The notes below the pieces were generated by a model. The model saw only the letters and a program-made list of their open reading frames with translations. It was not told where the DNA came from and did not search any database. The position numbers and the translations under genes were made by a program. Positions 6,728 to 24,957 of a DNA stretch of 34,119 nucleotides are shown here, in pieces (the stretch's first letter is position 1; every line of letters starts with the position of its first letter). Origin of the DNA: Smithella sp. PtaU1.Bin162 (lineage in GTDB: Bacteria; Desulfobacterota; Syntrophia; Syntrophales; Smithellaceae). Location: NCBI GenBank assembly GCA_002068015.1, contig MVRV01000163.1:1-34119 (forward strand), read 5' to 3'.

Positions 6728-8149
6728 CTATTCCAGACAAAACTTATTGATGGCCTGGGGCGGTGTAAGGGGGTAGTTGCCGGTATAGCAGGCGAGGCAA
6801 AAACAGTCCTCGTTCATTCCGGTAGCCCTGACCATGCCTTCGACAGTCAGGTAATGCATGGAATCCAGACCGAGAAAATCGGCAATCGCTTTTTCATTTT
6901 CTTTTTTTGCCGCCAGCAATTCTCCCTTGGAGGAAAAATCAATGCCGTAAGGGCAGGGATGAATAGTAGGCGGGCAGCTGATGGCCATATGAATTTCTTT
7001 AACGCCGATTCCCTTCAGGTTCTGTACCCGGTTGCGGCTCGTGGTGCCGCGGATGATGGAATCTTCAACTATTAGCACTTTCTTCCCGGCCAAGAGCTGC
7101 CTTACGGGATTGAGCTTAACGCGCACGCCGAAATCACGCATCAGCTGAGTCGGCTGGATAAATGTCCGGCCGACATAGTGATTGCGGATCATTCCCATTT
7201 CGAAGCCGATACCTGATTCTTCGGCGTAACCGAGGGCCGCATAAGTGCCGGAATCGGGGAAGGGCATCACAATATCAACATTGGGGATGTATTCCCGGGC
7301 CAGTTCATGGCCCAATCTTTTCCGGCATAAATAAACGTTCTGGCCGAAAATCTGGCTGTCGGGACGGGAGAAATAAATCAGCTCAAAGATGCAGTGGCAT
7401 GGTTTCACCGCCGGAAATGGTTGCAGGCTTTTGCAGCCGGTTTCATCAATAATTACAATTTCACCGGGATTAACATCCCGGATATATTTTGCTCCGACGA
7501 GATCAAAAGCACAGGTCTCCGAGGCGACAACAAATCCGCCGTTGATTTTTCCCAGTGCCAGAGGCCGGAATCCCCTGGGATCGCGGGCGGCGATAATTTT
7601 ATTACGGGTAAGCATAAGAATGCTGAAGGCGCCTTCCAGCCTGCCGAGAGCCTCAACCAACGCCTTTTCCAGGCCGTTTTTCAGATGAGGAGCCATCAGA
7701 TGGATGATGATTTCGCTGTCCATCGTCGATTGAAAGATCGATCCGCCGCTTTCCAGTTCTTCGCGTAATTGCCGGGCGTTGATAATATTGCCGTTATGGG
7801 CCAGAGCGTAATACTCATCGGCAAAATGAACCAGAAAAGGCTGGGCATTGGAAAGAACCGAAGATCCGGTTGTGGAATAACGGACATGGCCGATGGCCAG
7901 TTTACCGGGAAGTTTTTGCAATGTAGGTTCCTTGAAAACTTCCGCAGCAAGCCCCATACCTTTGTGATCCCAGACGTGCGAGCCGTCGGAACTGACAATG
8001 CCCGCCGATTCCTGCCCGCGGTGCTGCAGGGCGAAAAGTCCGAAAAAGGTCAGCCGCGATGCGTCTTCATGACCGTAAATACCAAAAATACCGCATTCTT
8101 CGCGGGGACGACCGGATTCATTTAACGTTTCTTCTGATAATGATTGCAT
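6728..8149 (-). CDS. purF: Amidophosphoribosyltransferase
   Basis: 473 residues. First committed step of purine synthesis: PRPP plus glutamine to phosphoribosylamine. An N-terminal class II glutaminase begins at C19 (EECGIFGIYGH), so an 18-residue propeptide must be cut off to free the catalytic Cys. The phosphoribosyltransferase part has the PRPP loop VLIVEDSIIRGTTS at 358-371. Cysteines C253, C399, C451 and C454 match the four ligands of the [4Fe-4S] cluster of the Bacillus-type enzyme, so this is the Fe-S, oxygen-sensitive class, unlike the E. coli enzyme. Last gene of carA-guaA-carB-purF, 43 bases after carB and with a hairpin in that gap. GAGAAAGA is a modest ribosome-binding site. Confidence 0.96.
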   Translation of the reverse strand: MQSLSEETLNESGRPREECGIFGIYGHEDASRLTFFGLFALQHRGQESAGIVSSDGSHVWDHKGMGLAAEVFKEPTLQKLPGKLAIGHVRYSTTGSSVLSNAQPFLVHFADEYYALAHNGNIINARQLREELESGGSIFQSTMDSEIIIHLMAPHLKNGLEKALVEALGRLEGAFSILMLTRNKIIAARDPRGFRPLALGKINGGFVVASETCAFDLVGAKYIRDVNPGEIVIIDETGCKSLQPFPAVKPCHCIFELIYFSRPDSQIFGQNVYLCRKRLGHELAREYIPNVDIVMPFPDSGTYAALGYAEESGIGFEMGMIRNHYVGRTFIQPTQLMRDFGVRVKLNPVRQLLAGKKVLIVEDSIIRGTTSRNRVQNLKGIGVKEIHMAISCPPTIHPCPYGIDFSSKGELLAAKKENEKAIADFLGLDSMHYLTVEGMVRATGMNEDCFCLACYTGNYPLTPPQAINKFCLE

Positions 8150-8192: not shown

Positions 8193-11100
8193 TTATTTAT
8201 GATGATATTCCTGCAAGGAACACACTTGCCATTCTTTCTTGAGGATCGCCTTTACCGACTCGCACAAGGCGCGTGCTCCGGCAATGGTTGTTGTATAAAG
8301 GATATTATAAGTAAGGGCACCGCGCCTGATATAATAAGCGTCACGGCTGGATTTCCGTCCGACACTGGTGTTGATGACCAGGGAAATTTCACCGTTCTTA
8401 ATGTGATCCACAATGTTGGGTCGCCCTTCGCTGACTTTCCAGGCCGTTTCGGCTTTTATCCCGTGGAAATTAAGATGTGCCGCCGTGCCGCGTGTGGCCA
8501 TTACTTTAAATCCCATCTCCTCAAAACCACGTGCCACCGGGACTATTTTATCCTTGTGATAGTCATGAACACTGATCAATACCGTGCCTTGTGCCGGTAT
8601 TTTAAAGCCGGCGGCCATTTGCGCTTTGGCGAAAGCCAGGCCGAAGGAGGAGTCGATGCCCATGACTTCGCCGGTTGATTTCATTTCCGGGCCCAACAGT
8701 GTATCGACGTTGGGGAACCGGTTGAAAGGGAAAACGGCTTCTTTAACGGAAACATGCGCCGGTTTTATGGTCCTCATAAAACCCAGTTCCGGAAGCGTCC
8801 GTCCCAGCATAACTTTCGTAGCAAGTTTGGCCAGAGGGACACCGATGGCTTTACTGACAAAAGGAACGGTACGGGATGCCCGCGGATTGACTTCCAGAAC
8901 ATACAGCGTGTTGTCCTTAATGGCATATTGAATATTCATCAGACCTATAACCTTTAATTCGCGGGACAGCAGAATGGTCTGTTTTTCGATTAATTCCAGC
9001 AAATGATTCGGTATGGTCAGGGGCGGCAGAATGCAGGCGCTGTCACCGGAATGGATTCCCGCCTCCTCGATGTGCTCCATAATTCCGGCTACGACCGTGG
9101 TATTACCGTCGCTTATGGCATCGACGTCAATTTCAATGGCATCTTCTAAATACTTGTCGATCAATATCGGATGATCCGGTGAAACCAGCATGGCTCTGCC
9201 CATAAAAGCGGCCAGAGTCTCCGGGTCGTAGACAATTTCCATCGAACGGCCGCCCAGCACGTAAGAAGGACGCACCAGCACCGGATAGCCGATTTGTGCG
9301 GCTGCGGCCAGTGCTTTTTCCACATCGCGCGCCGTGTCGTTTGCCGGCTGATGAAGATTCAGTTTAGTGACGATTTCCTGAAAACGGTCACGATTTTCCG
9401 CCCGGTCGATGGCGTCAGGCGAAGTGCCGATGATGGGCACCCCCGCAGCTTCCAGAGCTTTAGCGAGGTTTAGCGGCGTCTGGCCGCCGAACTGAACGAT
9501 AACGCCATCCGGTTTTTCCATCTGTAAAATATGCAAAACGTCTTCGAGCGTTACCGGTTCAAAGAAAAGTTTGTCGGAAGTATCATAATCCGTACTTACC
9601 GTCTCCGGATTGGAGTTGATCATGATGCTCTCGCAGTTTTCTTCCTTCAGAGCAAAGGAAGCGTGTACACAACAGTAATCAAATTCAATTCCCTGGCCGA
9701 TGCGGTTGGGACCACCGCCGATAATGGCCACTTTTTTCCTATCTGTGGGACGGGTTTCATTTTCCGTTTCATAGGTGGAATAATAATAAGGCGTGAAGGC
9801 AGCAAATTCCGCGGCACAGGTATCCACGAGTTTATAAACCGGCATGATTTTTTCCTTTTCACGCCAGGTACGGATATCCTGTTCCGTCTTTCCCCATACA
9901 TTGGCCAGTGCCCGGTCGGAAAACCCCATCTTTTTTGCCGCGGCCAGCATTTCTACGGAAGGCGGTGAATTTCTTAATTCCTCTTCGGCATCAACTATTT
10001 CCCGAATCTGATGTAAAAACCAGGGATCAATTTTCGTGAGACCCTCGATCTCGGCTACGGTTATTCCCTTTTGCAGAGCCGCCGCGATATAAAATAAGCG
10101 CAGGGAATTCGGCAGAACAAGTTTGCTTTTCAACAAATCCCTGTTGTCCGTTACATCTGCCGGCAGCGGATAGACGAGACTGAAACGGCCGGTTTCCAGT
10201 GAACGGACGGCTTTTTGCAACGCTTCCTTGAAAGTGCGGCCGATAGCCATGGTTTCGCCGACCGATTTCATAGACGTCGTCAGTAAATCTTCCGTATCCG
10301 GGAATTTCTCAAATGTCCAGCGGGGGATTTTGACTACGCAATAATCTATTGTCGGTTCGAAAGAGGCCATCGTCTCGCGGGTAATGTCATTGGGAATTTC
10401 ATCCAGCGTGTAACCAACGGCCAGCTTGGCCGCGATTTTCGCGATGGGGAATCCGGTTGCTTTGGAAGCGAGCGCCGATGATCGCGACACGCGGGGATTC
10501 ATTTCCACGACAATCATTTCACCGGTTTGCGGGTGAACGGCAAACTGGACGTTGGAGCCGCCTGTTTCGACGCCGATTTCCCGCATGATGGCTATAGCTG
10601 CATCGCGCATGTGCTGATATTCACGGTCAGTGAGCGTCTGGGCGGGAGCTACGGTTATTGATTCACCGGTGTGCACACCCATGGCGTCAAAATTTTCAAT
10701 GGAACAGATGATGACGACGTTATCCGCGCGGTCGCGCATTACTTCCAGCTCATATTCCTTCCAGCCCAGCACCGATTCTTCGATCATGACCTCCCCGATT
10801 ATGCTGGCCTCAATGCCGCTTTTGGCGATTGCACTGAGCTCTTCGCGGTTGTAAGCCACACCGCTGCCTGTTCCGCCCAGTGTAAAAGAAGCGCGAACAA
10901 TTATCGGGAAGCCGATTTCGGCGGCAATTTTCATTACTTCCGGCATCGAGCGGGCAAAGCCGCTTTTAGGCATGCGCAGGCCGATTTTTTCTATGGCCCG
11001 CCGGAATTTTTCCCGGTCTTCGGCTTTGTGGATGACATCGAGCGAAGCGCCGATCATTTCCACGCCGTATTCGGTAAGCACGCCGGATTCGGCAAGCGCT

Positions 11101-11399
11101 ACCGCCGTATTCAAGCCGGTCTGGCCGCCCAATGTCGGCAGAAGCGCATCAGGTCTCTCCCGGGCGATAATTTTTGTAACCGTCTCCGGTGTTATCGGTT
11201 CAACATAGGTGCGGTCGGCCATTTCCGGGTCGGTCATGATGGTTGCCGGATTGCTGTTGATCAGTATTACTTCATAGCCTTCTTCGCGCAGGGCTTTACA
11301 GGCCTGTGTTCCGGAATAATCAAATTCGCAGGCCTGGCTGATGATGATCGGGCCGGAGCCGATAAGCAGTATTTTTTTTATGTCGTTTCGTTTAGGCAC
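8193..11399 (-). CDS. carB: Carbamoyl-phosphate synthase large subunit
   Basis: 1068 residues from GTG 11399. Makes carbamoyl phosphate from bicarbonate, ATP and ammonia passed from CarA. Two homologous halves are seen, each with an ATP-grasp domain: the first opens [21 protein letters not shown], the second [23 protein letters not shown]-terminal allosteric domain ([20 protein letters not shown] onward, last about 140 residues) follows. The frame also allows a TTG start at 11417, but that would add six residues lacking in relatives and overlap guaA, whereas GTG gives the usual [11 protein letters not shown]-terminus and a 4-base gap after guaA. G of the common PIIIGQ/PIVIGQ motif is Ser here (PIIISQ). 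It is split from carA by guaA. Confidence 0.96.
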
Positions 11400-11403
11400 T
11401 ATG

Positions 11404-12933
11404 TTATTCCCATTCAATGGTGCTGGGCGGTTTGGAACTTATATCATAAACTACGCGGTTGATGCCGCGGACTTCATTGATAATACGGTTGGCAATGCGC
11501 GCCAGAATATCGTGCGGCAGTTGCGCCCAGTCGGCCGTCATGGCGTCATCACTTGTTACCGCCCTTATCGCCAGAATGTTTTCATATGTGCGCTGATCAC
11601 CCATGATGCCGACGCTTTTTAAAGGCAGGAGTATGGTAAAGGACTGCCAGAGTTTGTAATAAAGATTGTTGGCGCGAATTTCTTCCAGCAAAATCGTATC
11701 GGCTTTGCGCAGCACGGATAAGCGTTGCGCAGTAACTTCCCCGATAATCCGGATGGCGAGCCCCGGTCCGGGAAAAGGCTGGCGAAAGATGACATCATCG
11801 GCAAGTCCCAACTCTTTGCCCAGAAGCCGCACTTCATCCTTAAACAGATGTTTGAGTGGTTCAATCAGCTGCAGATTCATTTTCTTGGGCAGGCCGCCGA
11901 CGTTGTGGTGGGATTTAATGACCGCACTGGGACCGCCGAAGGCGGAGCGCGACTCAATTAAATCGGGATAAAGAGTGCCCTGGGCCAGGAATCTCACATT
12001 TTTTATTTTGTGCGCTTCTTTATCAAAAACTTCAATAAAGGTACGGCCGATTATCTTTCGTTTCTTTTCCGGATCCGTTACTCCCTTTAATTTACTTAAA
12101 AACAACTTTCCGGAACGGGCAAAGCGCAGGTTAATCCGCAAATGTTTTCTGAACATTTCAATGACACGCGGGGCTTCACCTTGACGGAGCACGCCGTTGT
12201 CCACAAACACGCAGGTCAGATTTTTACCGATGGCCCGGTGCAGCAAAACTGCGGCAACGGAGGAGTCGACTCCGCCGGAAAGTCCCAGGATTACTCTGCC
12301 GTCGCCTACCTGGGCACGGATTTCGGAGACGGCATCCTGGATGAACGACTTCATCGACCATGATTTTTTGCAGCGGCAAATGGCGGTCAGAAAATTCGCG
12401 AGCATCTTTGAGCCTGCCTGGGTATGAACGACTTCCGGATGAAATTGCAATCCGTAGAGGTGTCTTCGGGCATCTTCCGCGGCGGCAACCGGTGTATTTT
12501 CCGTGGAGGCCGTGATGGCGAAGCCTGCGGGAAGCCTGCCTATCGTATCGCCGTGGCTCATCCAGCAGCGGGTTTTTTTACCGACTCCGGCAAAAATGCC
12601 TTTGGAATTTTTGACAAGTAATTCGGCAAATCCGTACTCGCGCTTGGCGGAACCGATGACTTTGCCGCCCAGTGAATCGATCATGTATTGCAGGCCGTAG
12701 CAGATGCCCAGTACGGGAATGCCGAGGGTGAAGATGCCGCGGTCCACCCGGGGAGCGCCTTTGGTATAAATGCTGGCCGGTCCACCCGACAATATTATGC
12801 CTTCAGGATGGAGAGCCTGAATTGCGGAAAGTGTAATATCCGGCGGTTCAATCTGACAGTAAACATGATGTTCACGCACCCGGCGGGCAATCAATTGATT
12901 ATATTGAGAACCGAAATCGATAATCAGGATCAT
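11404..12933 (-). CDS. guaA: GMP synthase (glutamine-hydrolysing)
   Basis: 509 residues. Converts XMP to GMP with ATP and glutamine. The N-terminal class I amidotransferase domain has the triad C78 (GICYGLQ), H165 and E167 (LQFHPEV). The ATP-pyrophosphatase domain has its P-loop SGGVDSS at 219-225. The C-terminal dimerisation domain ends in the conserved KPPSTIEWE. The ATG overlaps the carA stop (ATGA at 12933-12930), with AAGGAG eight bases upstream inside the carA end, so translation is coupled to carA. Its position between carA and carB is unusual and joins purine and pyrimidine/arginine genes in one transcript. Confidence 0.97.
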
Positions 12934-14072
12934 GATGCTTTCTCCTTATTGTCTTTCATCAGCCGTACAAACTGCGAGAACAGGTATTCGGAATCATGCG
13001 GGCCCGGAGCGGCTTCCGGATGATACTGTACGCTCATTGTCAGGTCCATTTTCATGCCTTCGGAAGTGCCGTCGTTTAAATTAACATATGTATTATCGGC
13101 CTTGCCGGAAACTGAGGAAGGTACAACGACAAAACCGTGATTTTGGGAAGTTATTTCCACGCGCCCCGTATGCAGATTTTTAACTGGTTGATTAATGCCG
13201 TGGTGGCCGAATTTAAGCTTTTCCGTATAGCCGCCGACGGCCTGGCCGATAATCTGTTGTCCCAGGCAAATGCCGAATACCGGCAGCTTACCCAGAATAA
13301 AGCGGGCGGCCTCGACAATGTAGGGCAGCGCCGCGGGATCCCCCGGACCGTTGGAGAGCAGTACGCCGTCCGGCTGATGAAAAAGAATGTCGCTTCCGGA
13401 AGAACAAGCGGGCAGAACAATGACTTCACAGCCGTTTACTTCCAAGAGCCGCAGAATATTGTATTTAACTCCGCAATCAAGGACAACCACCCGCAATTTT
13501 TTAACCGGTTTTTTCACAGGGATCTTACCTTTATGGAGTGCGCCTTTTTTCCATAAATAGGGCTTTTTGCAACTTACTTCCCGGACTAAGTCGCGGCCGA
13601 CAAGTCCCGGATAAGCTGTAACTTTTTTCAAAAGTGCCGCCGTGTCGCGAGTTTCGGTGGAAATTATTCCTTTCATCGATCCGGAAAGTCTGAGCTTCCG
13701 GGTCAGCGCCCGGGTGTCAATTCCCTCGAGACCTATTTTGCCGTGTTCCTCCAGAAATGCCTGTAAACTTTTACGCATCCGCCAGTTGCTGGGATGGGGC
13801 TGATATTCCCTGACAATAAATCCTTCCAGATGAATACCTGCTGATTCCATATCTTCTTCATTAATGCCGTAATTGCCGATGAGCGGATAAGTCATTGTAA
13901 CGATTTGACCTTTATAGGAGGGATCGGTGATAACTTCCTGATAGCCGGTCATGCCGGTGTTAAAAACAACTTCCCCCAGAGTTTCGCCCCTTCCGGCAAA
14001 GGCAAAACCTTCAAAAACGCTGCCGTCTTCCAGTACCAGCAAAGCACTCAGTTTATTAGTCAACAGGGGCAT
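12930..14072 (-). CDS. carA: Carbamoyl-phosphate synthase small subunit
   Basis: 380 residues. Glutaminase subunit that passes ammonia to CarB. The N-terminal CarA-specific domain is typical ([33 protein letters not shown]). The C-terminal class I amidotransferase domain has C269 (FGICLGQQ), H351 and E353 ([10 protein letters not shown]). A short Lys-rich stretch at about 175-192 links the two domains. First gene of the carA-guaA-carB-purF operon. The ribosome-binding site before ATG 14072 is weak (CAGGTAC). A promoter just after the glnA stop would give a leader of about 114 bases. Confidence 0.97.
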
Positions 14073-14224: not shown

Positions 14225-15556
14225 TTAAAGCATCGGCAGGTAACGGTCGATTTCGAACTTACTGACATGAGTACGAAAACGGTCCCACTCGAGTTTTTTA
14301 TTTTCGATAAACTTTTCAAAAATGTGTTCACCCAGGGTTTCTTTGACGAGAGAACTGCTCTCGATAAGATGAATGGCCTCATGAAGACTGCCGGGGAGCG
14401 ATACTATTCCGGCCCGCAAACGGGCCTTTTCATCCATTTCATAAATATCCTCTTCCACCGGGTCGGGCAGTTTATATTTTTTTTCAATGCCGGCAAGACC
14501 GGCGGCGAGCATGACGGCAAAAGCCAGATAAGGATTGCAGGCCGGATCGGGTGAACGGAATTCAATGCGCGTTGCTTTTTCCTTTCCCGGTTTATACATG
14601 GGGACACGAATCATGGCGGAACGGTTGCGGCGGGCCCAGGAGACGTAAACCGGGGCTTCATAGCCGGGGACGAGACGTTTGTAGGAATTCACCCATTGAT
14701 TGCAAATGGCCGTTATTTCCGGCGCATGCTTCATCAGGCCGGCGATATAATGTTTGCACAGAGCCGATAGATGGTATTTATCATTGCCGTCAAAAAAAGC
14801 ATTATTGCTTTCCTGAAACAGGGACTGATGGGTATGCATTCCGCTGCCGTTTTCACCGAAAACCGGTTTGGGCATAAAGGTGGCGTAAACTCCGTTCTGG
14901 CGGGCGATTTCCTTTACCGCCGTGCGGTAAGTCATGACTTTATCCGCCATGGTGAGCGCTTCGTCGAAACGCAGATCAATCTCATGCTGGCTCGGCGCCA
15001 CTTCATGGTGCGAGTATTCAACGCGGATTCCCATATCCTGAAGCGCGAAGATGGTCTGACGGCGCAGATCCGTGGCGCGGTCAACGGGCAGGCCGTCGAA
15101 GTATCCGCCCCGGTCCAGATATTCGGTTGATTTTTCGCCGGCAAAATAGAAAAATTCCAGTTCCGGCCCCACATTGAAAGTATAGCCTTTGTCTTTTACC
15201 TTATCGAGCATCCGTTTCAGAACATAGCGTGGGTCACCTGCATAGGGAGTGCCGTCCGGATTGTAGATATCGCAAATCATGCGGGCTACCGGTCGGTCAC
15301 TGGGGCGCCAGGGAATAAGCTGAAAAGTTGTCGGATCGGGAATGGCCAGCATGTCGCTTTCTTCGATGCGGCAGAAACCTTCAATTGATGAGCCGTCGAA
15401 ACCCATTCCTTCCGCCATCCCTTCTTCCAGTTCCGAAGGGCTGATGCTGAAAATTTTCTGCATCCCCAGAACATCGGTGAACCAGAACTGAATGAAACTG
15501 ACATCCTTTTCCTTTACGGCTTTCAATACATCCTGTGGTGTCCAGCAGGTAATCAT
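14225..15556 (-). CDS. glnA: Glutamine synthetase type I (alpha-like)
   Basis: 443 residues from ATG 15556. Forms glutamine from glutamate, ammonia and ATP. Seen: beta-grasp domain with GFDGSS (52-57), GPELEFF with metal-binding Glu (130-136), HHEVAPSQHEIDLR, NGSGMHTHQS and the EFRSPDPACNPYLA motif near residue 340. The open frame continues upstream to 15670, but those 38 residues overlap glnN and match nothing, while AGGAGGT at 15571-15565 sits 8 bases before ATG 15556. The length and the lack of the NLYDLPP motif that holds the adenylylated Tyr place it with GSI-alpha enzymes such as those of Bacillus, which are not controlled by GlnE. It may also have its own sigma54 promoter. Confidence 0.95.
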   Translation of the reverse strand: MITCWTPQDVLKAVKEKDVSFIQFWFTDVLGMQKIFSISPSELEEGMAEGMGFDGSSIEGFCRIEESDMLAIPDPTTFQLIPWRPSDRPVARMICDIYNPDGTPYAGDPRYVLKRMLDKVKDKGYTFNVGPELEFFYFAGEKSTEYLDRGGYFDGLPVDRATDLRRQTIFALQDMGIRVEYSHHEVAPSQHEIDLRFDEALTMADKVMTYRTAVKEIARQNGVYATFMPKPVFGENGSGMHTHQSLFQESNNAFFDGNDKYHLSALCKHYIAGLMKHAPEITAICNQWVNSYKRLVPGYEAPVYVSWARRNRSAMIRVPMYKPGKEKATRIEFRSPDPACNPYLAFAVMLAAGLAGIEKKYKLPDPVEEDIYEMDEKARLRAGIVSLPGSLHEAIHLIESSSLVKETLGEHIFEKFIENKKLEWDRFRTHVSKFEIDRYLPML

Positions 15557-15594
15557 CTTTACGTACCTCCTTGTTCGATCATGTCCGATAAATA

Positions 15595-15612
15595 TGCTGC
15601 TCTTGTGCCGAA
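15595..15612 (-). promoter_or_regulatory. Possible sigma54 promoter of glnA
   Basis: The minus strand reads TTCGGCACAAGAGCAGCA, with GG (15609-15608) and GC (15597-15596) separated by exactly 10 bases, as required for the -24/-12 elements. The -24 part (GGCAC) is good and the -12 part (CAGC instead of TTGC) is poor. It starts 6 bases after the glnN stop and would leave a leader of about 29 bases before glnA. Confidence 0.4.
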
Positions 15613-15617
15613 CATTA

Positions 15618-17786
15618 TTAATTGATGAACAGCATTTCCCAGAATTTCGGCATCGGCCAGACTTCATCATCCATCAGGCTTTCCAGTTCATCGATGTAAT
15701 TGCGCAGTTCGTTCATGGCCGTTTTTACCTTGCTGCACAGCATTTCCGCTTTCCTCTGTTCGTCATGAACACTGTGGACCGCATCAACCTTGGCCAGTAT
15801 TTCCTTATTGGCATTGTATATTTTATTAATCAGGTCAACTATTTTTTTCAGGATTTCCACCTGCGAAGAAAGAACGACCGAACTGCCCAGGGCATCCTTT
15901 GTTTTATTCACGGCACCGGCCAGCGTTTTTTGATAAATCGTTGCCGCCGGGATTACCTGATTCATGCAGATATTGTTCAGGCATTTGACTTCAATCTCCA
16001 GATCTTTGATATATTTTTCCAGATATATCAGATGTCTTGATTTGAGCTCAACTTTGGAAAGCACCTGATATTTTTCAAAGAGATTCAGAGCCTTGTCGGT
16101 AACGAGGGCTTTGAGTGCGACCGGGGTGGTTTTATAATTCGGCAGACCTCTTTTTTCCGCTTCCATCTCCCATTCTTTGGTGTAGTTGTCGCCGTTGAAG
16201 AGAATCGGTTTTATTTCCTTGATTTCTTTCTTTAATATTTCAAAGACGGTTTGGTTAATGTTACCGCCTTTGGCTTTGATTTTTTCGGCAAGATAATCAA
16301 GGCTTTCGGCGACAATAGTATTGATCACTGTGGCCGGGAAAGAAATGGATTGCGAGGAACCCACCGCCCGGAATTCAAATTTATTGCCGGTGAAGGCAAA
16401 GGGTGATGTTCTGTTGCGGTCGGTATTGTCTTTGCTGACGAGCGGCAATGAGGAAATCCCGAGATCAATGATTTCAGCGTTCGTGGCTTTGCTTACTATC
16501 CCTTTTTCAATGTTGCTCAGAATGCCAGTCAGCTGGTCGCCCAGAAAGATGGAGATGATGGCCGGCGGTGCTTCATTGGCGCCCAGCCGGTGATCGTTGG
16601 CGTAAGTGGCGACCGATGCCCGGAGAATGTCGGCATTTTTATAAACGGCGCGGATAACGGCGATTAAAAATACCAGAAACTGAATGTTGTCATGGGGAGT
16701 TTTTCCCGGATTCAGCAGATTATTGCCGTTGTTGTCGGCAAGCGACCAGTTGACGTGCTTGCCTGAACCGTTGATTCCGGCAAAAGGTTTTTCATGCAGG
16801 AGTAAGGCCAGGTGGTGCTTTTTGGACACTGCCTTTAACGTATCCATAACAATATGATTGTGATCGACAGCCAGATTGGCTTCTTCATATACCGGTGCTA
16901 TTTCAAACTGGCAGGGAGCAACTTCGTTGTGGCGGGTTTTGGCCGGTACGGCGAGCTTGAATAGTTCTTCCTCGACATCGTGCATGTAGGAAGATATTCT
17001 TTCCTTGATGCTGCCGAAATACTGATCTTCGAGTTCCTGTCCTTTGGCCGGCGGTGCCCCAACTATAGCCCTGCCGCCCAGAACAAGATCCTGGCGTTTG
17101 AAGAAGTGATCCCGGTCAATCAAAAAATATTCCTGTTCCGGTCCCAGATTGGCGAATACCTTTTTGACATTTTTAGCGCCGAGCAGTTTCAGCATGTTCA
17201 AGGCGCTCTTATTAAGAGCTTTTGTTGACCGCAGGAGCGGTGTCTTTTTATCCAGGGCCTCACCCGTGAAGGAAATAAAGGCGGTGGGGATGCACAAGGT
17301 CGTCGAGATGCCGTTTCTGCGGATAAATGCGGGCGAAGACATGTCCCAGGCCGTGTATCCGCGGGCTTCAAAGGTTGCTCTAATGCCGCCGGAAGGAAAG
17401 CTGGAGGCATCCGGTTCGCCCTGCACAAGCTGCTTGCCGGAAAATTTTTCCATAACCTCGCCGACACCTGTCGGTTCGATAAAAGCATCGTGTTTCTCCG
17501 CCGTCGTGCCGGTCATCGGCTGAAACCAATGGGCAAAGTGAGTGGCGCCTTTTTCCAGAGCCCATTCTTTCATGGCGCAGGCCACAATATCCGCCGTTGC
17601 GGAATCAATGGTTTTGGCTTCGTTAATTGCCTCCATCATTTTTTTATATGCTTCTTTGGGGAGTTTTTCCTTCATTATTTTGTTGCTGAAAGTATCCTCG
17701 CCGTAATATTCCGATACGGGAACAAATTTTTCCTTTTCCACCACATACTTTCTTTCTGCAGCGATCATCAGTTTTGTATTTTTCAT
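15618..17786 (-). CDS. glnN: Glutamine synthetase type III
   Basis: 722 residues, the size of GSIII and much longer than GSI. The GSIII signature FAHWFQPMTGTTAEKHDAF lies at about 84-102. Other catalytic-core motifs are KTRHNEVAPCQFEIAP, GINGSGKHVNWSLADN (about 340) and GANEAPPAIISIFLG. A long helical C-terminal part (about 560-722) is typical of the type. Same reaction as GlnA, but GSIII forms a dodecamer of another geometry. GGAGAGGA ahead of ATG 17786 supports the start. It lies 39 bases after the glutamate synthase gene and 61 bases before glnA, so one operon has two unrelated-looking glutamine synthetases. Confidence 0.95.
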   Translation of the reverse strand: MKNTKLMIAAERKYVVEKEKFVPVSEYYGEDTFSNKIMKEKLPKEAYKKMMEAINEAKTIDSATADIVACAMKEWALEKGATHFAHWFQPMTGTTAEKHDAFIEPTGVGEVMEKFSGKQLVQGEPDASSFPSGGIRATFEARGYTAWDMSSPAFIRRNGISTTLCIPTAFISFTGEALDKKTPLLRSTKALNKSALNMLKLLGAKNVKKVFANLGPEQEYFLIDRDHFFKRQDLVLGGRAIVGAPPAKGQELEDQYFGSIKERISSYMHDVEEELFKLAVPAKTRHNEVAPCQFEIAPVYEEANLAVDHNHIVMDTLKAVSKKHHLALLLHEKPFAGINGSGKHVNWSLADNNGNNLLNPGKTPHDNIQFLVFLIAVIRAVYKNADILRASVATYANDHRLGANEAPPAIISIFLGDQLTGILSNIEKGIVSKATNAEIIDLGISSLPLVSKDNTDRNRTSPFAFTGNKFEFRAVGSSQSISFPATVINTIVAESLDYLAEKIKAKGGNINQTVFEILKKEIKEIKPILFNGDNYTKEWEMEAEKRGLPNYKTTPVALKALVTDKALNLFEKYQVLSKVELKSRHLIYLEKYIKDLEIEVKCLNNICMNQVIPAATIYQKTLAGAVNKTKDALGSSVVLSSQVEILKKIVDLINKIYNANKEILAKVDAVHSVHDEQRKAEMLCSKVKTAMNELRNYIDELESLMDDEVWPMPKFWEMLFIN

Positions 17787-17825: not shown

Positions 17826-20162
17826 CTATTCCAATGGTAAATTCCCCGTGAGTCTCCAGATACCCGTAGGGCATGCCCCGGCGCAGAAACCACAGCCGAT
17901 GCAGCGTTCATTATTTACCGTATACTCAAATTTCCCCTGGTCCAGTTCCTTTCGGGCAATGGCGTTTTGCGGACAGATATTTTCACATATTCCACAATCA
18001 CGGCAGGCGCCGCAGGAGGCACAATGACTCGCGCAGGCGCCGGTGTCGCCGAAATCGGCTTTCCGGGGATCGAAATATTCCGGGTGCACCCGCTGAAAAT
18101 CAAACGGAGGAAGCTTATCATATTTTTCTTTAATTCCGTTTAATAAATCATCAATGTTTCTTGCGGCAACACGGCCGGCACCGATGGCCTCGGTGAGCAA
18201 TCCCGGCTTTACGACGTCACCCACGGCAAAAACCTGTTTGTCACTCGTTTCAAAATTATCGTCAACAACTATAAAGCCTTTAGTCGTGGCGATTTCTTCC
18301 GGCAGAAAAGATAAATCCGGCAGATCTCCTATCGCCACAATGACCGTATCCGCCGGTATTATTTCACCGCTTGTCAATTCCACACCCTTGTCGGTTATCG
18401 CTTTCGTAAAGCGCGGCCAGAGAAATTTTGCTCCGGCCGCTTCGGCATGTTTTCTCTCCACGCCAAATGATGCGGGCTCTTGAACGTCGATAAGGATGAT
18501 GTTTTTCGCTCCCAGCCGGGAGGCTTCTGCAGCGGCGTCGCAGCCTACATTTCCGGCGCCGATAATGACGACGTTTTCGCCCACTTTGGCCTTATCCCGT
18601 TTGCTCATTTTCAAAAAATCAGTTGCCGTAACCGCTTTTTCCATGCCGCTAACCGGCAGCTTGCGCGGTTTCCCGGCACCGGCGGCAATGACAATATAAT
18701 CATATTCGTCTTTTATTTCCTGAAATTTTCCTCTATCTAAAGGCTTTTCCAGATGGATGTGCCGGATATTTTTGGCCAGACGTTTAATTTCGTGCCCGAC
18801 GACCTCATCGGGAATCCGGTTTTTCGGAATGTTTTCCGTAATTTTACCACCAAGTTTCTTTCTGTTTTCCAGAATAACCGTTTCATGGCCTGCCCGCCAC
18901 AGTTGCCAGGCAACAGAAAGACCGGCGGCTCCTCCGCCGATAACGGCTATCTTTTTTCCGGTAGCCTTCCGGGGAGAGGGAGCTTTGGCGTCAAGCGATG
19001 CTTTACCCAAAAGGGCTATGTCAAGCGGCGGCAGATGAACGAGCCCGCGGGTACAATTCTGCATACAGAGATTAGGGCAAAGATAGCCGCAGACGGTTGC
19101 CGGAAAGGGGGTATATTCGAGTGCCAGATCAACGGCTTCATCCATTTTGCCCTGGCGGATCAGTTCCCATCGTTTTTGTACCGGAATGCCGGTCGGACAG
19201 GCGGCCTGACAGGGCGGCAAATATTTTTCATTTTCCCAAACAGGTACAAAGCGGCGCAAGTCACCGGTCGGAGTCAGGCCGATGGGCGAGCGATCGAGAT
19301 TAGACAGGTCTCCGATCAGACCGCCTGCACCCAGTTCTTTTTCCCAGACTTCCCGGCGGTATCCGGTCATATTGCGCAGTGATTTGCCCGTCTTTTCATG
19401 CGGTTTGCGGGCAACGAGAATTTTCCAGTCGTTGCGTTCGGCGGTTAACTGGTCGAATAAATATTGTTTGCCGATTGCTTTTAGAAATTCCTGCAGATTC
19501 GCCTTAAGCCATATCCACTCTTCGTCGGGCAGATTGATCGTCAATTTGGCATTTTGGTTGCTGTAGTTATCCTGATTTCCGCGGAAAAATATCTTGCCGC
19601 CGACCATGCCGACACACGGCCGATAACCCAGCACGGAGCGATCTTTTTCGGCGCCGACACCGCAGACAACGGCGATGCCGCCGGCCATAAATTCAGCAAA
19701 GGAATCACCCACCTTACCGAAAACCCAGAGTTCCGGCGGCTCAAACCGGGGGTTGTGTTTGGTCATGGTCATGCCCCGTGCCCCGATGTCGCCGTCAATA
19801 TAAACTTTACCCTGGGCCATGGCATTGGCTATGCCGTTTGTGGCATTGCCGTGAACAATTATCTTTGCTCCGGCGTTGAGCCAGCCCACATCGTCGGAGG
19901 CAGGTCCGAATACTTCAATTACCGTATTGGGAAATCCCATGGAACCCAGCCTTTGACCGGAAGAACCCAGAACATTAACCTGAACATGGTCATTGCCTGC
20001 TTGCCACAAACGTCCGCCGATTCCGTGCTGGCCGTGCGCGGTAACTTCAATTTGCCGGTAGCCGTCGGCTACGGCCCGTTGAATGCGCTCTTCCAGAATC
20101 CGGGAATCCACACGCAGGCCGTTTTCCAAACCGTTGACTTTAATAGAATCTTTAGAGGTCAT
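17826..20162 (-). CDS. gltD: Glutamate synthase: GXGXG domain fused to FAD/NAD(P)H/ferredoxin subunit
   Basis: 778 residues, a fusion. Residues 1-240 are the GXGXG beta-helix domain normally found at the C-terminus of GltB (repeats such as GHQHGIGGRL, GNATNGIANAM, GDIGARGM). Residues 300-380 are the cysteine-rich GltD N-terminal region (C318, C322, C358, C362, C366, C370). An FAD-binding site GGGAAG is at 409-414 and an NAD(P)-binding site GAGNVG at 535-540. A C-terminal ferredoxin part has C710-C730 (seven cysteines) and C754, C757, C760, C764, enough for at least two [4Fe-4S] clusters. It should feed electrons to the FMN subunit encoded just upstream. Start at 20162 follows GGATAAG. The electron donor (NADPH, NADH or ferredoxin) is not settled by sequence. 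Confidence 0.88.
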   Translation of the reverse strand: MTSKDSIKVNGLENGLRVDSRILEERIQRAVADGYRQIEVTAHGQHGIGGRLWQAGNDHVQVNVLGSSGQRLGSMGFPNTVIEVFGPASDDVGWLNAGAKIIVHGNATNGIANAMAQGKVYIDGDIGARGMTMTKHNPRFEPPELWVFGKVGDSFAEFMAGGIAVVCGVGAEKDRSVLGYRPCVGMVGGKIFFRGNQDNYSNQNAKLTINLPDEEWIWLKANLQEFLKAIGKQYLFDQLTAERNDWKILVARKPHEKTGKSLRNMTGYRREVWEKELGAGGLIGDLSNLDRSPIGLTPTGDLRRFVPVWENEKYLPPCQAACPTGIPVQKRWELIRQGKMDEAVDLALEYTPFPATVCGYLCPNLCMQNCTRGLVHLPPLDIALLGKASLDAKAPSPRKATGKKIAVIGGGAAGLSVAWQLWRAGHETVILENRKKLGGKITENIPKNRIPDEVVGHEIKRLAKNIRHIHLEKPLDRGKFQEIKDEYDYIVIAAGAGKPRKLPVSGMEKAVTATDFLKMSKRDKAKVGENVVIIGAGNVGCDAAAEASRLGAKNIILIDVQEPASFGVERKHAEAAGAKFLWPRFTKAITDKGVELTSGEIIPADTVIVAIGDLPDLSFLPEEIATTKGFIVVDDNFETSDKQVFAVGDVVKPGLLTEAIGAGRVAARNIDDLLNGIKEKYDKLPPFDFQRVHPEYFDPRKADFGDTGACASHCASCGACRDCGICENICPQNAIARKELDQGKFEYTVNNERCIGCGFCAGACPTGIWRLTGNLPLE

Positions 20163-20183: not shown

Positions 20184-21818
20184 CTATAAAACATATTTTA
20201 TTTTCAGCCGCTCTGCAGCGTGAGCGTCGGCAATGCCTAAAGCGTCGGCCATACCGATGGGCAGTGATGTGGAACGTCCCAGCGGAGCAACTATTTTCTT
20301 TAATTCCGTATCAAAACCGGTAAATACATCAACAATCCGCCGTGCTACCTTTTCCGGATCCAGGCGGCGATCCAGACGGGGATCCTGAGAGGTTATGCCT
20401 TTCGGACAAAGGCCGATATTACAAATGTTGCAGCGGTCGGTCTCCGATCCCAGACATCCTGCCGCCGCCTGCATGATGTATTTACCGGTTTGCACGCCGC
20501 TTGCTCCCAGCATGATGAGAGCGGCGGCGTTTGCGGCCAGATTACCGTTTTTTCCGATGCCGCCTCCGGCAAAGAGCGGGATTTCGTTTTGCTTGCCGAC
20601 TTTTACGAGATTCAGATAAGCATCCCGTAAATTGCTGGCGATGGGATGTCCCATGTGATCCATCGAAACATTATAAGCGGCGCCGGTTCCGCCGTCTTCA
20701 CCGTCGATGGCAAGCCCTGCGGCGTAGGGATTGCGAGTCAGATTATTCAATACCGCAAGCGACGTGCTGGTGGCCGATATTTTCGGGTAAACCGGTACGC
20801 GGAAGCCCCAGGCCATCGACATGGACTGGATCATTTTGGCAACCGCTTCCTCGATGGAATACTTCGTCTGATGAGTCGGCGGGCTGGGCAGACTCACTCC
20901 CTGCGGAACGCCGCGGATCGCCGCAATCAGTTTATTGACTTTATACCACATGAGCAGTCCGCCGTCGCCGGGTTTGGCACCCTGGCCGTACTTGATTTCA
21001 ATAGCACAGGGATCTTCCTTCATATGCGGCAGGGCATGAATTATTTCATCCCAGCCGAAATAACCGCTTGCTATCTGCAAAATGACGTATTTGAGAAAAC
21101 GGGATTTAAGGAGCCGCGGCGGACAGCCTCCCTCTCCGGTGCATATCCGTACAGGCATGCCCATCTCTTCGTTGAGATAAGAAACGCCCATTTGCAGGCC
21201 TTCCCACATATTAGGGGATAGCGCGCCAAACGACATACTGCCGATAATTAAAGGATATATTTCCCGAACCGGCGGCATCCAGCCGTTTTCCCGGCCGGCC
21301 TTGATCATTTCCTCCGGCGGCAGGATCCGTCCCAGCAGTGTACGCAACTCAAATTCGTGACGGCCGGCATCGAGCGCGGGGTCGGTCAGCATGGAAATGC
21401 GGACAAATTTAATTTTATCCAGAACACTGTCTGGCGAATTGCGGCGACCACCCCGGCGGCGCGGTTCCCCGCCGGCGTTTCTGTGATAACGCAGCTTATC
21501 GGGTTCATCACCGTGCATCGGCACAATGGCGTTATTGGGACAAACCAGAGTGCACATACCGCAGCCGACACAGGCATAGGATGGTTCGGTGCGCTGTCGA
21601 ATACCGTGATAAATTTCAAAAACATTGGAAGGCTTTTCGGCAAGTCCCGGGGTAACCTGCACTGACCGTTTCCGGTGTACCCCCAGTTCAATTGCCTGTA
21701 CCGGGCAAACAGACGTACACTGCCCGCAAAGCGTGCATTTTTCCTTATTCCAGAGAATCTGCCAGGGCAGATCTTTGATACTTAATTTAGATGGGGTAAT
21801 GCATCCCATTGATTCCAT
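20184..21818 (-). CDS. gltB: Glutamate synthase FMN/Fe-S synthase subunit (archaeal-type GltB)
   Basis: 544 residues. Two [4Fe-4S] motifs open the protein: C28, C31, C34, C38 and C83, C86, C89, C93. The FMN-binding synthase barrel follows from about 160, with SMSFGALS (194-201), TGEGG (227-231), YGQGAKPGDGG (277-287), DGEDGGTGAA (372-381) and GGGIGKNGN (418-426). C463, C466 and C471 lie where the [3Fe-4S] cluster of glutamate synthase is bound. The subunit reduces the 2-oxoglutarate/ammonia adduct to glutamate. ATG 21818 has AGGAG eight bases upstream and lies inside the end of the preceding gene (37-base overlap), pointing to coupled translation. The separate synthase with ferredoxin domains is the organisation known from archaea and some anaerobes. 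Confidence 0.9.
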   Translation of the reverse strand: MESMGCITPSKLSIKDLPWQILWNKEKCTLCGQCTSVCPVQAIELGVHRKRSVQVTPGLAEKPSNVFEIYHGIRQRTEPSYACVGCGMCTLVCPNNAIVPMHGDEPDKLRYHRNAGGEPRRRGGRRNSPDSVLDKIKFVRISMLTDPALDAGRHEFELRTLLGRILPPEEMIKAGRENGWMPPVREIYPLIIGSMSFGALSPNMWEGLQMGVSYLNEEMGMPVRICTGEGGCPPRLLKSRFLKYVILQIASGYFGWDEIIHALPHMKEDPCAIEIKYGQGAKPGDGGLLMWYKVNKLIAAIRGVPQGVSLPSPPTHQTKYSIEEAVAKMIQSMSMAWGFRVPVYPKISATSTSLAVLNNLTRNPYAAGLAIDGEDGGTGAAYNVSMDHMGHPIASNLRDAYLNLVKVGKQNEIPLFAGGGIGKNGNLAANAAALIMLGASGVQTGKYIMQAAAGCLGSETDRCNICNIGLCPKGITSQDPRLDRRLDPEKVARRIVDVFTGFDTELKKIVAPLGRSTSLPIGMADALGIADAHAAERLKIKYVL

Positions 21819-22912
21819 TTTTCAATCTCCTGCCTTTCGCGGCGTATCAGAACTGTTTCATATTTCATCGGCTGGAAATCAAGATTGATATCTCTCTCCG
21901 GTATTGCCGTATCGAGCCCGCACATTTCCGATGAAAATGCAAAGATTCCGGGTCGGCCGCCCACAACTCCGGGCCTCAGTTTTTTTGAATCCTGTACCAT
22001 GAACAGGCTTTTATCCGGCAGACAGCCCATGACGCAATTCGGGCCGTCGATAATCAGCGGCCGGCAGCTTTGTTTTAATTTTTTCAGCCACAATCCCGCT
22101 GAGTGCTTTTCCAGTTCATCATCTTTCAGAGGCGTAATAATGTGTTTGTACATTTCGATGCCGAGCCCGAGTTTTCTATTCATATAATGCAGAATATGCG
22201 TAAAAACCTCCGAATCGGACTGATAGCCGGTATAACCGGGGAAATTACGCGACATTAAAAATTCCCGAATCGGTACAAAGGCGGTATTTTCGCCGTTAGT
22301 CATGGTGGCTATCCCCTGAATAAAGAAGGGATGGCAGGCGTAAATATCAATAGAATAATTCGTGTTTTGTCTTCCCTGGCTTAAAATCACCCGCGCCTGC
22401 AATTCCTTGCGGTCCAGCCCCAGATATTCGGCAACGGCCAGAGGATCGCCGACTTCTTTGAGCATGATGACATCCGGCCAGAAGCTGAAAATCATCATCG
22501 AATTATCTTTTTCCCCCAGCCGGCGCAGTTGCAACTGTACCATCATGAGACGAAATTGAATTTCAGTTTCGCTTAATCCTTCCCAATCCGCCGGGTATTC
22601 ATAAACCCGAATAACGTAGTTATCTCTTTTGGGTGTTCCCGATGGCGGAAGTTTACCCGGCCGGAAAGAAAGTTTGTATTTGACCATAAAATCCAGGTCA
22701 ATCATGTAACGGTCCAGAGCTTTGATTCCTTCATTGGAAAAAATCCCGGAAAGAATAGGTTCCCCTTTAAAATGTTCGAATTCTCCGCCCAGATCGGTGA
22801 GAAAAAGTCCCACTCCGGAACCGTCATGCCCTTCTTTCATTACATCCAGGGCTCTTATCGCGACCATCGGCGAAAGCGGATTGTTACATGTTACAGCAAA
22901 AAGGCGACACAT
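21782..22912 (-). CDS. gltB: Glutamate synthase glutaminase subunit (class II amidotransferase)
   Basis: 376 residues. The N-terminus is MCRLFAVTCNNPLSP, so after removal of Met the catalytic Cys is the N-terminal residue, as in class II (Ntn) amidotransferases. Further features are MKEGHDGSGVGLFL near 30 and a TNGEN motif near 205. It equals the glutaminase domain of bacterial GltB made as its own chain. It should release ammonia from glutamine for the FMN subunit encoded next. First gene of the nitrogen operon. GGAGG lies a little far (12 bases) from ATG 22912, but AAGGT abuts it. The call rests partly on context, since lone proteins of this fold are hard to tell apart. Confidence 0.85.
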   Translation of the reverse strand: MCRLFAVTCNNPLSPMVAIRALDVMKEGHDGSGVGLFLTDLGGEFEHFKGEPILSGIFSNEGIKALDRYMIDLDFMVKYKLSFRPGKLPPSGTPKRDNYVIRVYEYPADWEGLSETEIQFRLMMVQLQLRRLGEKDNSMMIFSFWPDVIMLKEVGDPLAVAEYLGLDRKELQARVILSQGRQNTNYSIDIYACHPFFIQGIATMTNGENTAFVPIREFLMSRNFPGYTGYQSDSEVFTHILHYMNRKLGLGIEMYKHIITPLKDDELEKHSAGLWLKKLKQSCRPLIIDGPNCVMGCLPDKSLFMVQDSKKLRPGVVGGRPGIFAFSSEMCGLDTAIPERDINLDFQPMKYETVLIRRERQEIEKWNQWDALPHLN

Positions 22913-22973: not shown

Positions 22974-22991
22974 TTGCTAAAGTCATGCCAG
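22974..22991 (-). promoter_or_regulatory. Sigma54 promoter of the glutamate synthase/glutamine synthetase operon
   Basis: The minus strand reads CTGGCATGACTTTAGCAA. GG (22989-22988) and GC (22977-22976) are 10 bases apart, and the match to YTGGCACGrNNNTTGCW has only two mismatches. It predicts transcription from about 22964, some 52 bases before the gene at 22912. A sigma54 activator gene lies next door. This is the best promoter in the window. Confidence 0.7.
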
Positions 22992-23113
22992 GATCATCAA
23001 TATATATTGTTTATCTGTTCCAGTCCTTATTCCAGGCTTTTATCCGATATTAGGAGCTCTTCAAACGCCCGCTAAAAAGAACATAAATGTAATTTTGCCG
23101 GACAGCGGAACAT

Positions 23114-23125
23114 ATTTGTACAAAT
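23114..23125. promoter_or_regulatory. Dyad ATTTGTACAAAT, candidate upstream activator site
   Basis: A perfect 12-base palindrome. Its half-sites TTTGT/ACAAA recur with one extra central base in the dyad at 24820-24832, just before the activator gene. This suggests one protein binds both, possibly the activator itself. It does not match the TGT-N10-ACA of classical NifA sites. Confidence 0.35.
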
Positions 23126-23210: not shown

Positions 23211-24794
23211 CTACCCTTCTTTATTGATCTCTTTGCTCTTGCTGCGAAAAAGTTTCGGATTGATTCCCATCTTGCCGATTTTATACTGAATAATGCGCTT
23301 TGTCGTTCCCAGGATTTTTGCGGCTTTGGTTTGATTACCGCGGGCTTCTTCCAGGGCATCGATAATCAGGGATCTTTCCTGAGCTTCCACAACGGAAGAC
23401 AATTTGCTTCGGCTTTTTTTGTCCGCCTCTTTTTCTTTGACCTGCAACGAGGGTGGTAAATGTATGCACTCAATGGTATCGGTATGGGAAAGCAAGACGG
23501 CCCGTTCTATGCAATTTTCCAGTTCCCGGACATTGCCGGGCCACTTGTGAGATAGAAACGCCTCAATAGCCGATGTGGAAATTTTCTTAACGTTTTTACC
23601 CATTTCCTTACTGTATTTGAGAATAAAATAATCGGCAAGCAGAATGATGTCGCTGCCTCTTTCCCGCAGAGCGGGCAGATAGATGGGGAAAACATTCAGA
23701 CGGTAATATAAATCAGCCCGAAAACGTTCCGCCAGAATATCCTGTTCCAGATTTCTGTTGGTCGCGGCGATAATCCGTACGTTAATGCTGATTACCCGTG
23801 AAGAACCGAGCGGCTGAAACTTTTTTTCCTGCAAAACACGCAAGAGCTTTACCTGCGCTGCGGCGGAGAGTTCTCCTACTTCATCGAGAAAGATGGTGCC
23901 GCCGTTGGCTTCTTCAAACCGGCCGCGGCGCTGGTGCAACGCACCGGTAAAAGCACCTTTTTCATGGCCGAACAATTCGCTTTCAATCAGCGTATCGGGA
24001 ATTGCCGCACAATTTACCTGTACGAGCGGCCCGTTGTGCCTGGGACTGTTCATGTGAATTGCGCGGGCGATCAATTCCTTGCCGGTTCCCGTTTCTCCGG
24101 TAATCAAAACTGTCGTGTTGGAATCTGCAACCTGGGCAACCAGGCCAAAAACTTCCTGCATGGGCTTGGAATGACCGATAATATCGATGGACGGTGCGCG
24201 GGAACTACCGACAATTTTGCGCAGCCTTCTGTTTTCTTCTTCGAGAGCCCGTATATGCACGGCTTTGGCCATGAGTTCGGCCACGGCCGCGAGCATGGCG
24301 AGTTCCTTATCCAGAATTTCCACTTCGCGGGCAACTTTATCGGCGGAGAGCACTCCGACTACGCGATCGTCGTAAATGATGGGGACACAAAGAAAGGCGA
24401 GCTCCGATCTGTTTAAATGTTTTCGCGCTCCGGTGCGGTCGAGAAAATGAGTGGCTTGTCCCAGATTGGCAATCGCCATCGGGCGGCCTGTTTCCGCCAC
24501 CTTGCCGGTTATTCCTTCGCCGGGCTTGTAGGTTATGTCCATACCGTCGATATCGACATCATGGGCGACATCAAGCCAGGCTTCCTTTTTTTCACGATCC
24601 AGAAGGGAGATCATACCGCGCTGCATTCCCAGGCGGGAACTCATTTCCTGCAGAATCTGTTCCAGTTGATAGCGCAGATCCTGCGGTTGCGCTAAAATCT
24701 TGGCTATCGCGTGTAGTGTCGCCAGTTCTTCATAACTATGAATACTCAAATTGGCCTCTTTTTCAGGGAAATTATTTTTTTTACTCTTGTTCAT
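23211..24794 (-). CDS. Sigma54-dependent activator, GAF-AAA+-Fis (NifA-like)
   Basis: 527 residues from ATG 24794. A GAF sensor domain (about 24-185), a short coiled linker, then the sigma54-interaction AAA+ domain: Walker A GETGTGKE 233-240, GAFTGA 280-285 (contacts sigma54), Walker B GTIFLDEV 299-306, arginine-finger region [13 protein letters not shown] and sensor [12 protein letters not shown] 418-427. The C-terminus is a Fis-type helix-turn-helix at about 486-510 ([15 protein letters not shown]). The order equals NifA and FhlA-like activators; there is no receiver domain, so it is not NtrC. The CX4C linker of oxygen-sensitive NifA is not seen. The frame runs on to 24950, but that part is AT-rich and full of palindromes, so the shorter start is preferred, though neither has a good ribosome-binding site. 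Likely activates the adjacent nitrogen operon. Confidence 0.88.
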
Positions 24795-24819
24795 AAACGA
24801 TTCGGCAAACCGTAGTGTA

Positions 24820-24832
24820 TTTTGTAACAAAA
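24820..24832. promoter_or_regulatory. Dyad TTTTGTAACAAAA before the activator gene
   Basis: A perfect odd palindrome with half-sites TTTTGT and ACAAAA, 25 bases upstream of ATG 24794. It resembles the dyad at 23114-23125 and may be an autoregulatory site. Confidence 0.35.
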
Positions 24833-24836
24833 ATGT

Positions 24837-24852
24837 ACTAATTGCAATTAGT
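24837..24852. promoter_or_regulatory. 16-base perfect palindrome ACTAATTGCAATTAGT
   Basis: A perfect palindrome 42-58 bases upstream of ATG 24794, in the AT-rich space between the activator and the aminotransferase. It is a likely operator; the binding protein is unknown. Confidence 0.4.
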
Positions 24853-24957
24853 TTTTTGTTTCTGTTGATGGATTCGCAATTAATGAGCCAGTTATGTGCT
24901 TTTTTGATAATTTTATCCAAAATAATAAATTTACCAATTATCTTATGCATAGGAGAT

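Follow-up and report, generated by a model that had tools for sequence, protein, structure and literature searches.

The closest precedent for the locus analysed here, likened to it by description and not by orthology, would appear to be the predicted DVU1949 regulon of Desulfovibrio vulgaris. In the parts of Kazakov et al. 2015 (PMC4641369) drawn on here, DVU1949 is a one-component sigma54 regulator with a GAFTGA motif, its predicted regulon spans nine operons labelled nitrogen metabolism and transport, autoregulation is proposed, the gene shares a transcript with DVU1952 and, in four genomes, with iorAB as well, and its vicinity is reported to contain no conserved sigma54 promoter. For Geobacter sulfurreducens, an RpoN promoter was predicted before the glutamate synthase (GOGAT) operon GSU1235-GSU1239 and one was found by primer extension for glnB-glnA (PMC2725144); the portions of that report used here name no GAF activator linked to the RpoN regulon, unlike the arrangement described below. 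Among NifA-like GAF activators, the GAF domain of Azotobacter NifA binds 2-oxoglutarate, and the ligand of the GAF domain of Nlh1 is described as unknown in the consulted sections of the same review (PMC9866876).

We analysed a stretch of 34,119 nucleotides from Smithella sp. PtaU1.Bin162 (the window), in which the gene of a GAF-AAA+-Fis activator (ACT) lies directly upstream of an operon for glutamate synthase (glt) and glutamine synthetase (GS). As far as the description of DVU1949 drawn on here extends, the two are alike as one-component sigma54 regulators with GAFTGA, nitrogen targets and proposed autoregulation; they differ in that the ACT gene is preceded by a sigma54-like site, whereas no conserved sigma54 promoter is reported near the DVU1949 gene. 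The DVU1949 targets reportedly include a glutamate synthase of the three-gene type and an amt gene. The regulatory features and the activator gene are as follows:

22975..22990, minus strand: sigma54 -24/-12 element of the glutamate synthase operon, TGGCATGACTTTAGCA (conserved sequence match)
23079..23092, minus strand: proximal putative enhancer dyad, TTACATTTATGTTC, centred 95 bp ahead of the -24 TGG
23108..23121, minus strand: distal putative enhancer dyad, GTACAAATATGTTC, 29 bp beyond the proximal one and 124 bp from the -24 TGG
23211..24794, minus strand: ACT, GAF-AAA+-Fis activator (probable start 24794, not the listed 24950)
24819..24847, minus strand: sigma70-like TTGCAA-N17-CAAAAT before ACT, its spacer filled by a dyad
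24825..24838, minus strand: single dyad, GTACATTTTTGTTA, proposed autorepression operator
24875..24890, minus strand: sigma54-like element before ACT, TGGCTCATTAATTGCG, conserved in the family

An earlier note on this DNA had proposed that the GOGAT-GS operon has a sigma54 promoter and, next to it, the gene of a GAF activator. The site it had read on the minus strand was confirmed at 22975-22990: TGGCATGACTTTAGCA has the exact GG-N10-GC spacing and two mismatches to TGGCACG-N4-TTGCA, and its GC end lies 63 bp ahead of the ATG at 22912. Since matches to TGGCAC-N5-TTGC with at most two mismatches were no commoner in the window (26) than in shuffles (34.7), the lone match is not significant; therefore we examined conservation of the element, a check in orthologous upstream regions that had been set beforehand. 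The family set consisted of activator-gene loci from 30 genomes, in 17 of which (own included) the glutamate synthase gene adjoined within the fetched stretch; all 17 kept the element with one or two mismatches, its GC end being 38-83 bp ahead of the start codon. Family and order-level relatives together provided 29 activator-to-glt intergenic regions (24 in a less redundant subset). A site with at most three mismatches within 150 bp of the start was present in 24/29 regions (shuffle mean 0.23, maximum 2), and one with at most two mismatches in 20/29 (shuffle mean 0.05, maximum 1); the respective counts in the less redundant subset were 19 and 16 of 24, and the shuffles, like the Fisher tests, ignore the relatedness of the genomes. 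Five of the 29 regions (L120, L122, L127, L132 and L134) were without a site at this distance and at most three mismatches; sites with four mismatches are present in L120, L132 and L134. RpoN is encoded in the genome (TIGR02395, 446.3 bits against a cut-off of 277.35). The check did not refute the proposed promoter, which is supported by its conservation.

The gene upstream proved to be what the note had described, a GAF-AAA+-Fis activator: GAF, sigma54-interaction AAA+ (PF00158) and Fis HTH_8 (PF02954) domains were found, and the GAFTGA loop is intact and invariant in nine sequences. By architecture, ACT is a predicted enhancer-binding protein. Its start is probably 24794 because i) the further-upstream alignments of many relatives contain stop codons, and ii) conserved promoter-like elements sit inside the longer open reading frame (ORF). 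The best solved homologue is 9qq6_C (E 3.8e-110), and orthologues, sought in 79 genomes (own included), share 77-88% identity within the family.

The term "NifA-like", also from the note, holds for homology and for architecture, GAF-AAA+-Fis being shared with NifA of the NifL-NifA systems. As a true NifA, ACT was rejected at 492.9 bits, below the nifA equivalog cut-off of 528.85, and a NifA role was rejected as the best nifH match in the genome reached 46.7 bits against a cut-off of 394.35. The ACT-associated dyad, ACA-N4-TGT, is moreover unlike the NifA site, TGT-N10-ACA. In its GAF region ACT resembles NifA and Nlh1 (4g3k, E 1.1e-17; GAF domains compared), the latter being, with Nlh2, a NifA-like GAF activator of Aquifex aeolicus. 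A reasonable guess for the signal at the ACT GAF domain is 2-oxoglutarate or a P-II protein. As an NtrC, ACT was rejected for want of the N-terminal receiver domain: its N-terminus is a GAF domain only. In other respects it may work like NtrC, through paired enhancer sites and sigma54 on GS and amtB-glnK targets; paired sites stand before both the GS operon and amtB-glnK in this genome. The further proposal of a GAF sensor "rather than NtrB/NtrC" was weakly tested: no ntrC equivalog exceeds the cut-off in the genome, a weak result because only 1/14 control genomes passes, and NtrC-family regulators are many.

A 14-bp dyad, GNACAWWWWTGTNC, occurs in the activator-to-glt regions, mostly in two copies. 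A first count gave 67 dyads over the 29 regions (shuffle mean 3.8, maximum 9). At a stricter threshold, 22/29 regions held two dyads spaced by 27-33 bp (in 18 of them by exactly 29 bp) and seven held no such pair, while 200 dinucleotide shuffles of the 29 regions produced no region with a pair; in the reduced set of 24, the pair was present in 18 regions (15 at exactly 29 bp). In the window both dyads lie upstream of the target promoter, as expected for an enhancer-binding protein, and they are likely docking sites of ACT. A third dyad lies ~22 bp ahead of the -24 element in L043, L050, L053, L054 and L057, where binding might interfere with polymerase.

The 3.6 Mb genome from which the window comes has the exact 29-bp pair at a single place, ahead of glt. 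With at most two mismatches, the 29-bp pattern was found at four places; as the reversed control also gave three, only the exact place was kept. The 30-bp pattern was found at five places, against one for the control: two with one mismatch (before amtB, and inside an ORF, the latter being set aside as a target) and three with two mismatches. At the amtB place a P-II gene (glnK) accompanies amtB (the genome has two P-II genes in all), and the promoter combines a sigma54 site, TGGCATTATCCTTGCC, with dyads 75 and 105 bp from its TGG.

When 59 relatives (own included) were scanned with the paired-dyad pattern, 45 places were assigned by the following gene: 21 to glutamate synthase, nine to amtB (four confirmed by Pfam, the rest by reading), two to carA (one confirmed), one to NrpR and glutamate dehydrogenase (GDH; NrpR confirmed), five to a TorF-like porin, two to a PPDK_N-domain gene (one confirmed), one before an activator gene, and four to others. 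One of the 21 (G023) follows an activator gene at a contig end, glt being off the contig; in G032 the pair is ~0.6 kb ahead of an activator gene, and the places G064 C25, G064 C18, G069 C2 and G053 C83 have no clear nitrogen link. P-II was found beside amtB in two relatives (Pfam). Because paired dyads front amtB here and in relatives, we rejected a purely local circuit: the "local nitrogen circuit" suggested earlier is too narrow, given the pairs before amtB-glnK in this genome and before amtB, carA, NrpR-GDH and other genes in relatives.

The TorF-like porin, behind paired dyads in L229, L234, L269, L270 and L271, is a possible further target, and at four of these five loci a KefB-like gene (by reading) comes next; of two copies tested, one matches TIGR02001, under its cut-off. 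A PPDK_N-domain protein is encoded repeatedly next to the activator gene or after a dyad pair (L224:1694-2604, L266:1946-3700 and L103:4271-6859, the last of 862 aa). NrpR, an archaeal nitrogen repressor, has homologues at L106:7425-8426, L254:294-1307, L273:610-1611 (NRD1_2, Pfam) and in L116 (by reading), which in several relatives adjoin GDH and/or the activator gene.

We also fetched 20 stretches without the three-gene glutamate synthase (L102-L121). Near the activator in 13 of them is an ammonia-assimilation or glutamine gene of another kind: another glutamate synthase, GltB/GltD, GDH with an NrpR-type regulator, GSIII, GSI or carA (neighbours in L108, L112, L113 and L116 assigned by reading). 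No such gene was recognised in L102, L104, L107, L110, L111, L114 and L115, several of these stretches being short, and none of the window's other genes was near the activator homologues in L135 and L136.

The leader of ACT itself carries a different layout. In 30/30 family loci a sigma54-like site (at most four mismatches) lies 59-61 bp upstream of a single dyad (shuffle mean 0.005, maximum 1; reduced set, 19/19), and in 30/30 that dyad fills the 17-bp spacer of sigma70-like hexamers, which match at just 3 to 5 of 6 positions; a generic sigma70 scan did not call the element at 24819-24847. Among order-level relatives the layout was mostly not seen at the thresholds used. Since a protein on the spacer dyad should block the sigma70-like promoter, we propose autorepression plus a second, sigma54 start, with ACT probably repressing its own gene. 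Such a leader resembles the analogous dual promoter glnAp1/glnAp2. Divergent from the ACT gene is an aminotransferase gene (window 25047-26192), a neighbour that persists in several relatives without an adjoining glt operon.

Downstream of the glt promoter, the genes run as follows:

21782..22912, minus strand: first glutamate synthase gene, amidotransferase-like by reading and position (no Pfam or NCBIfam match)
20184..21818, minus strand: glutamate synthase, Glu_synthase and ferredoxin domains (domain matches)
17826..20162, minus strand: glutamate synthase, GXGXG and FAD/NAD oxidoreductase domains (domain matches)
15618..17786, minus strand: glutamine synthetase type III, GSIII (domain matches)
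14225..15670, minus strand: glutamine synthetase type I, GSI (listed ORF; true start probably further in)
12930..14072, minus strand: carA (by reading; the homologue in L268 has CPSase_sm_chain)
11404..12933, minus strand: guaA (by reading)
8193..11417, minus strand: carB (by reading)
6728..8149, minus strand: purF (TIGR01134, 489.6 bits; cut-off, 350)

The order carA, guaA, carB was found again in relatives, and hairpins between GSI and carA were at chance level (one found; shuffle mean 0.6). At window 2640-4970 lies a hybrid histidine kinase with MASE6, PAS, HATPase_c and receiver domains.

The computed sites are conserved, as is their spacing, and they co-occur with ACT and nitrogen genes; from this we infer that ACT binds and loops the DNA, activates the operon and represses its own gene, and likewise how far the operon extends and what the signal is. 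We consider it probable (roughly 80%) that the unit is the sigma54 promoter-enhancer of an ammonium-assimilation circuit run by the one-component ACT, which would also serve amtB-glnK and its own gene. Under nitrogen limitation, ACT would bind the two 14-bp dyads 29 bp apart (~95 and 124 bp from -24), contact sigma54-RNA polymerase at 22975-22990, and so switch on glt-GSIII-GSI and probably also carA-guaA-carB-purF; the same ACT would act on amtB-glnK elsewhere in the genome, and would control its own gene through the sigma54-like promoter and repression via the single dyad in the sigma70-like spacer. The interpretation in the earlier note, which overlooked the enhancer dyads and ACT's own promoter region, is as a whole partly supported.

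A different explanation, which we regard as unlikely, is that the sigma54 promoter is real and is driven by another enhancer-binding protein (e.g., an NtrC-type response regulator), ACT controlling only itself or something else. The genome offers candidates: it has 43 sigma54-interaction domain matches, of which 41 reach at least 210 bits, and numerous response regulators of the NtrC family. On the other hand, the same dyad fronts ACT's own gene in all 30 family loci, and the pair tracks ACT among the 59 scanned genomes, being present in 31/43 with an ACT orthologue versus 1/16 without (reversed pattern, 3/59); that single genome, G027, seems to correspond to the contig of L152, on which only a 3' piece of an activator gene is present. 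We also took the best 80 named loci for the first glt gene (Smithella, Syntrophus, other Syntrophales, Syntrophobacterales and Desulfobacterales), dropping eight with less than 700 bp upstream to leave 72. With a linked ACT, 39/39 loci had the sigma54 site, 29/39 the dyad pair and 29/39 both (10 had no pair); without one, the counts were 8/33, 9/33 and 4/33 respectively.

Three of these four exceptions are in genomes with an unlinked ACT orthologue (>730 bits); the fourth, L172, has both features, yet its genome record contains no ACT orthologue (the best match reaches 472 bits), a case of sites without ACT that favours another activator. The same explanation gains from the 22 genomes searched for lacking a glt-linked activator: an ACT orthologue is present, unlinked, in 11 of them (658-776 bits), and of these 11 only three have both site and pair ahead of glt, while eight do not have both. 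Moreover, L203, L210, L211, L213 and L214, which include Desulfobacterales-type records, have a dyad pair ~31 bp apart upstream of glt and no linked activator; in L203, L210, L211 and L214 a sigma54-like match lies >200 bp ahead of the glt start, and a search of these four genomes found no ACT orthologue (at most 480 bits). Because L172, L203, L210, L211 and L214 hold sites without an ACT orthologue, a related protein may read a similar motif, and the pairs in L203, L210, L211, L213 and L214 are perhaps read by a different regulator. The link between ACT and its sites is tight in Syntrophales and looser outside.

Considerably less probable is a minor role for the sigma54 site, with most expression of the operon due to read-through from ACT or to a sigma70 promoter yet to be mapped. 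Read-through could occur because no terminator-like hairpin was found between ACT and glt, which are on the same strand; however, conservation is strong both for the sigma54 site and for its distance from the dyads. That the GG-N10-GC match arose by chance, such matches being equally common in window and shuffles, is contradicted by the 17/17 and 24/29 conservation and is scarcely credible.

Smithella, Syntrophus and other syntrophic bacteria live close to the energy limit. Judging from literature listings, we found no paper on their nitrogen-assimilation regulator, nor, judging by title and abstract, one describing this Syntrophales circuit. Beyond regulation by ACT at this locus, we tentatively suggest, as a broader reading that may well prove wrong, that in Syntrophales a NifA-type GAF sensor replaced NtrB/NtrC as the main regulator of ammonium assimilation, with one and the same protein activating at the dyad pair (29-bp pairs at the sigma54 promoters of glt-GS and amtB-glnK) and repressing its own gene at the single dyad within a sigma70 spacer, and that enzymes were swapped (three-gene GOGAT, other GOGATs, GDH) as the regulator stayed. 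Conserved across many syntrophic bacteria along with the regulator gene and the likely docking sites, the switch probably does an NtrB/NtrC-like job. The analysis yields a concrete regulator, motif, spacing rule and target list, and suggests that the use of NifA-type GAF regulators is not confined to nitrogen fixation and can extend to nitrogen control in general.
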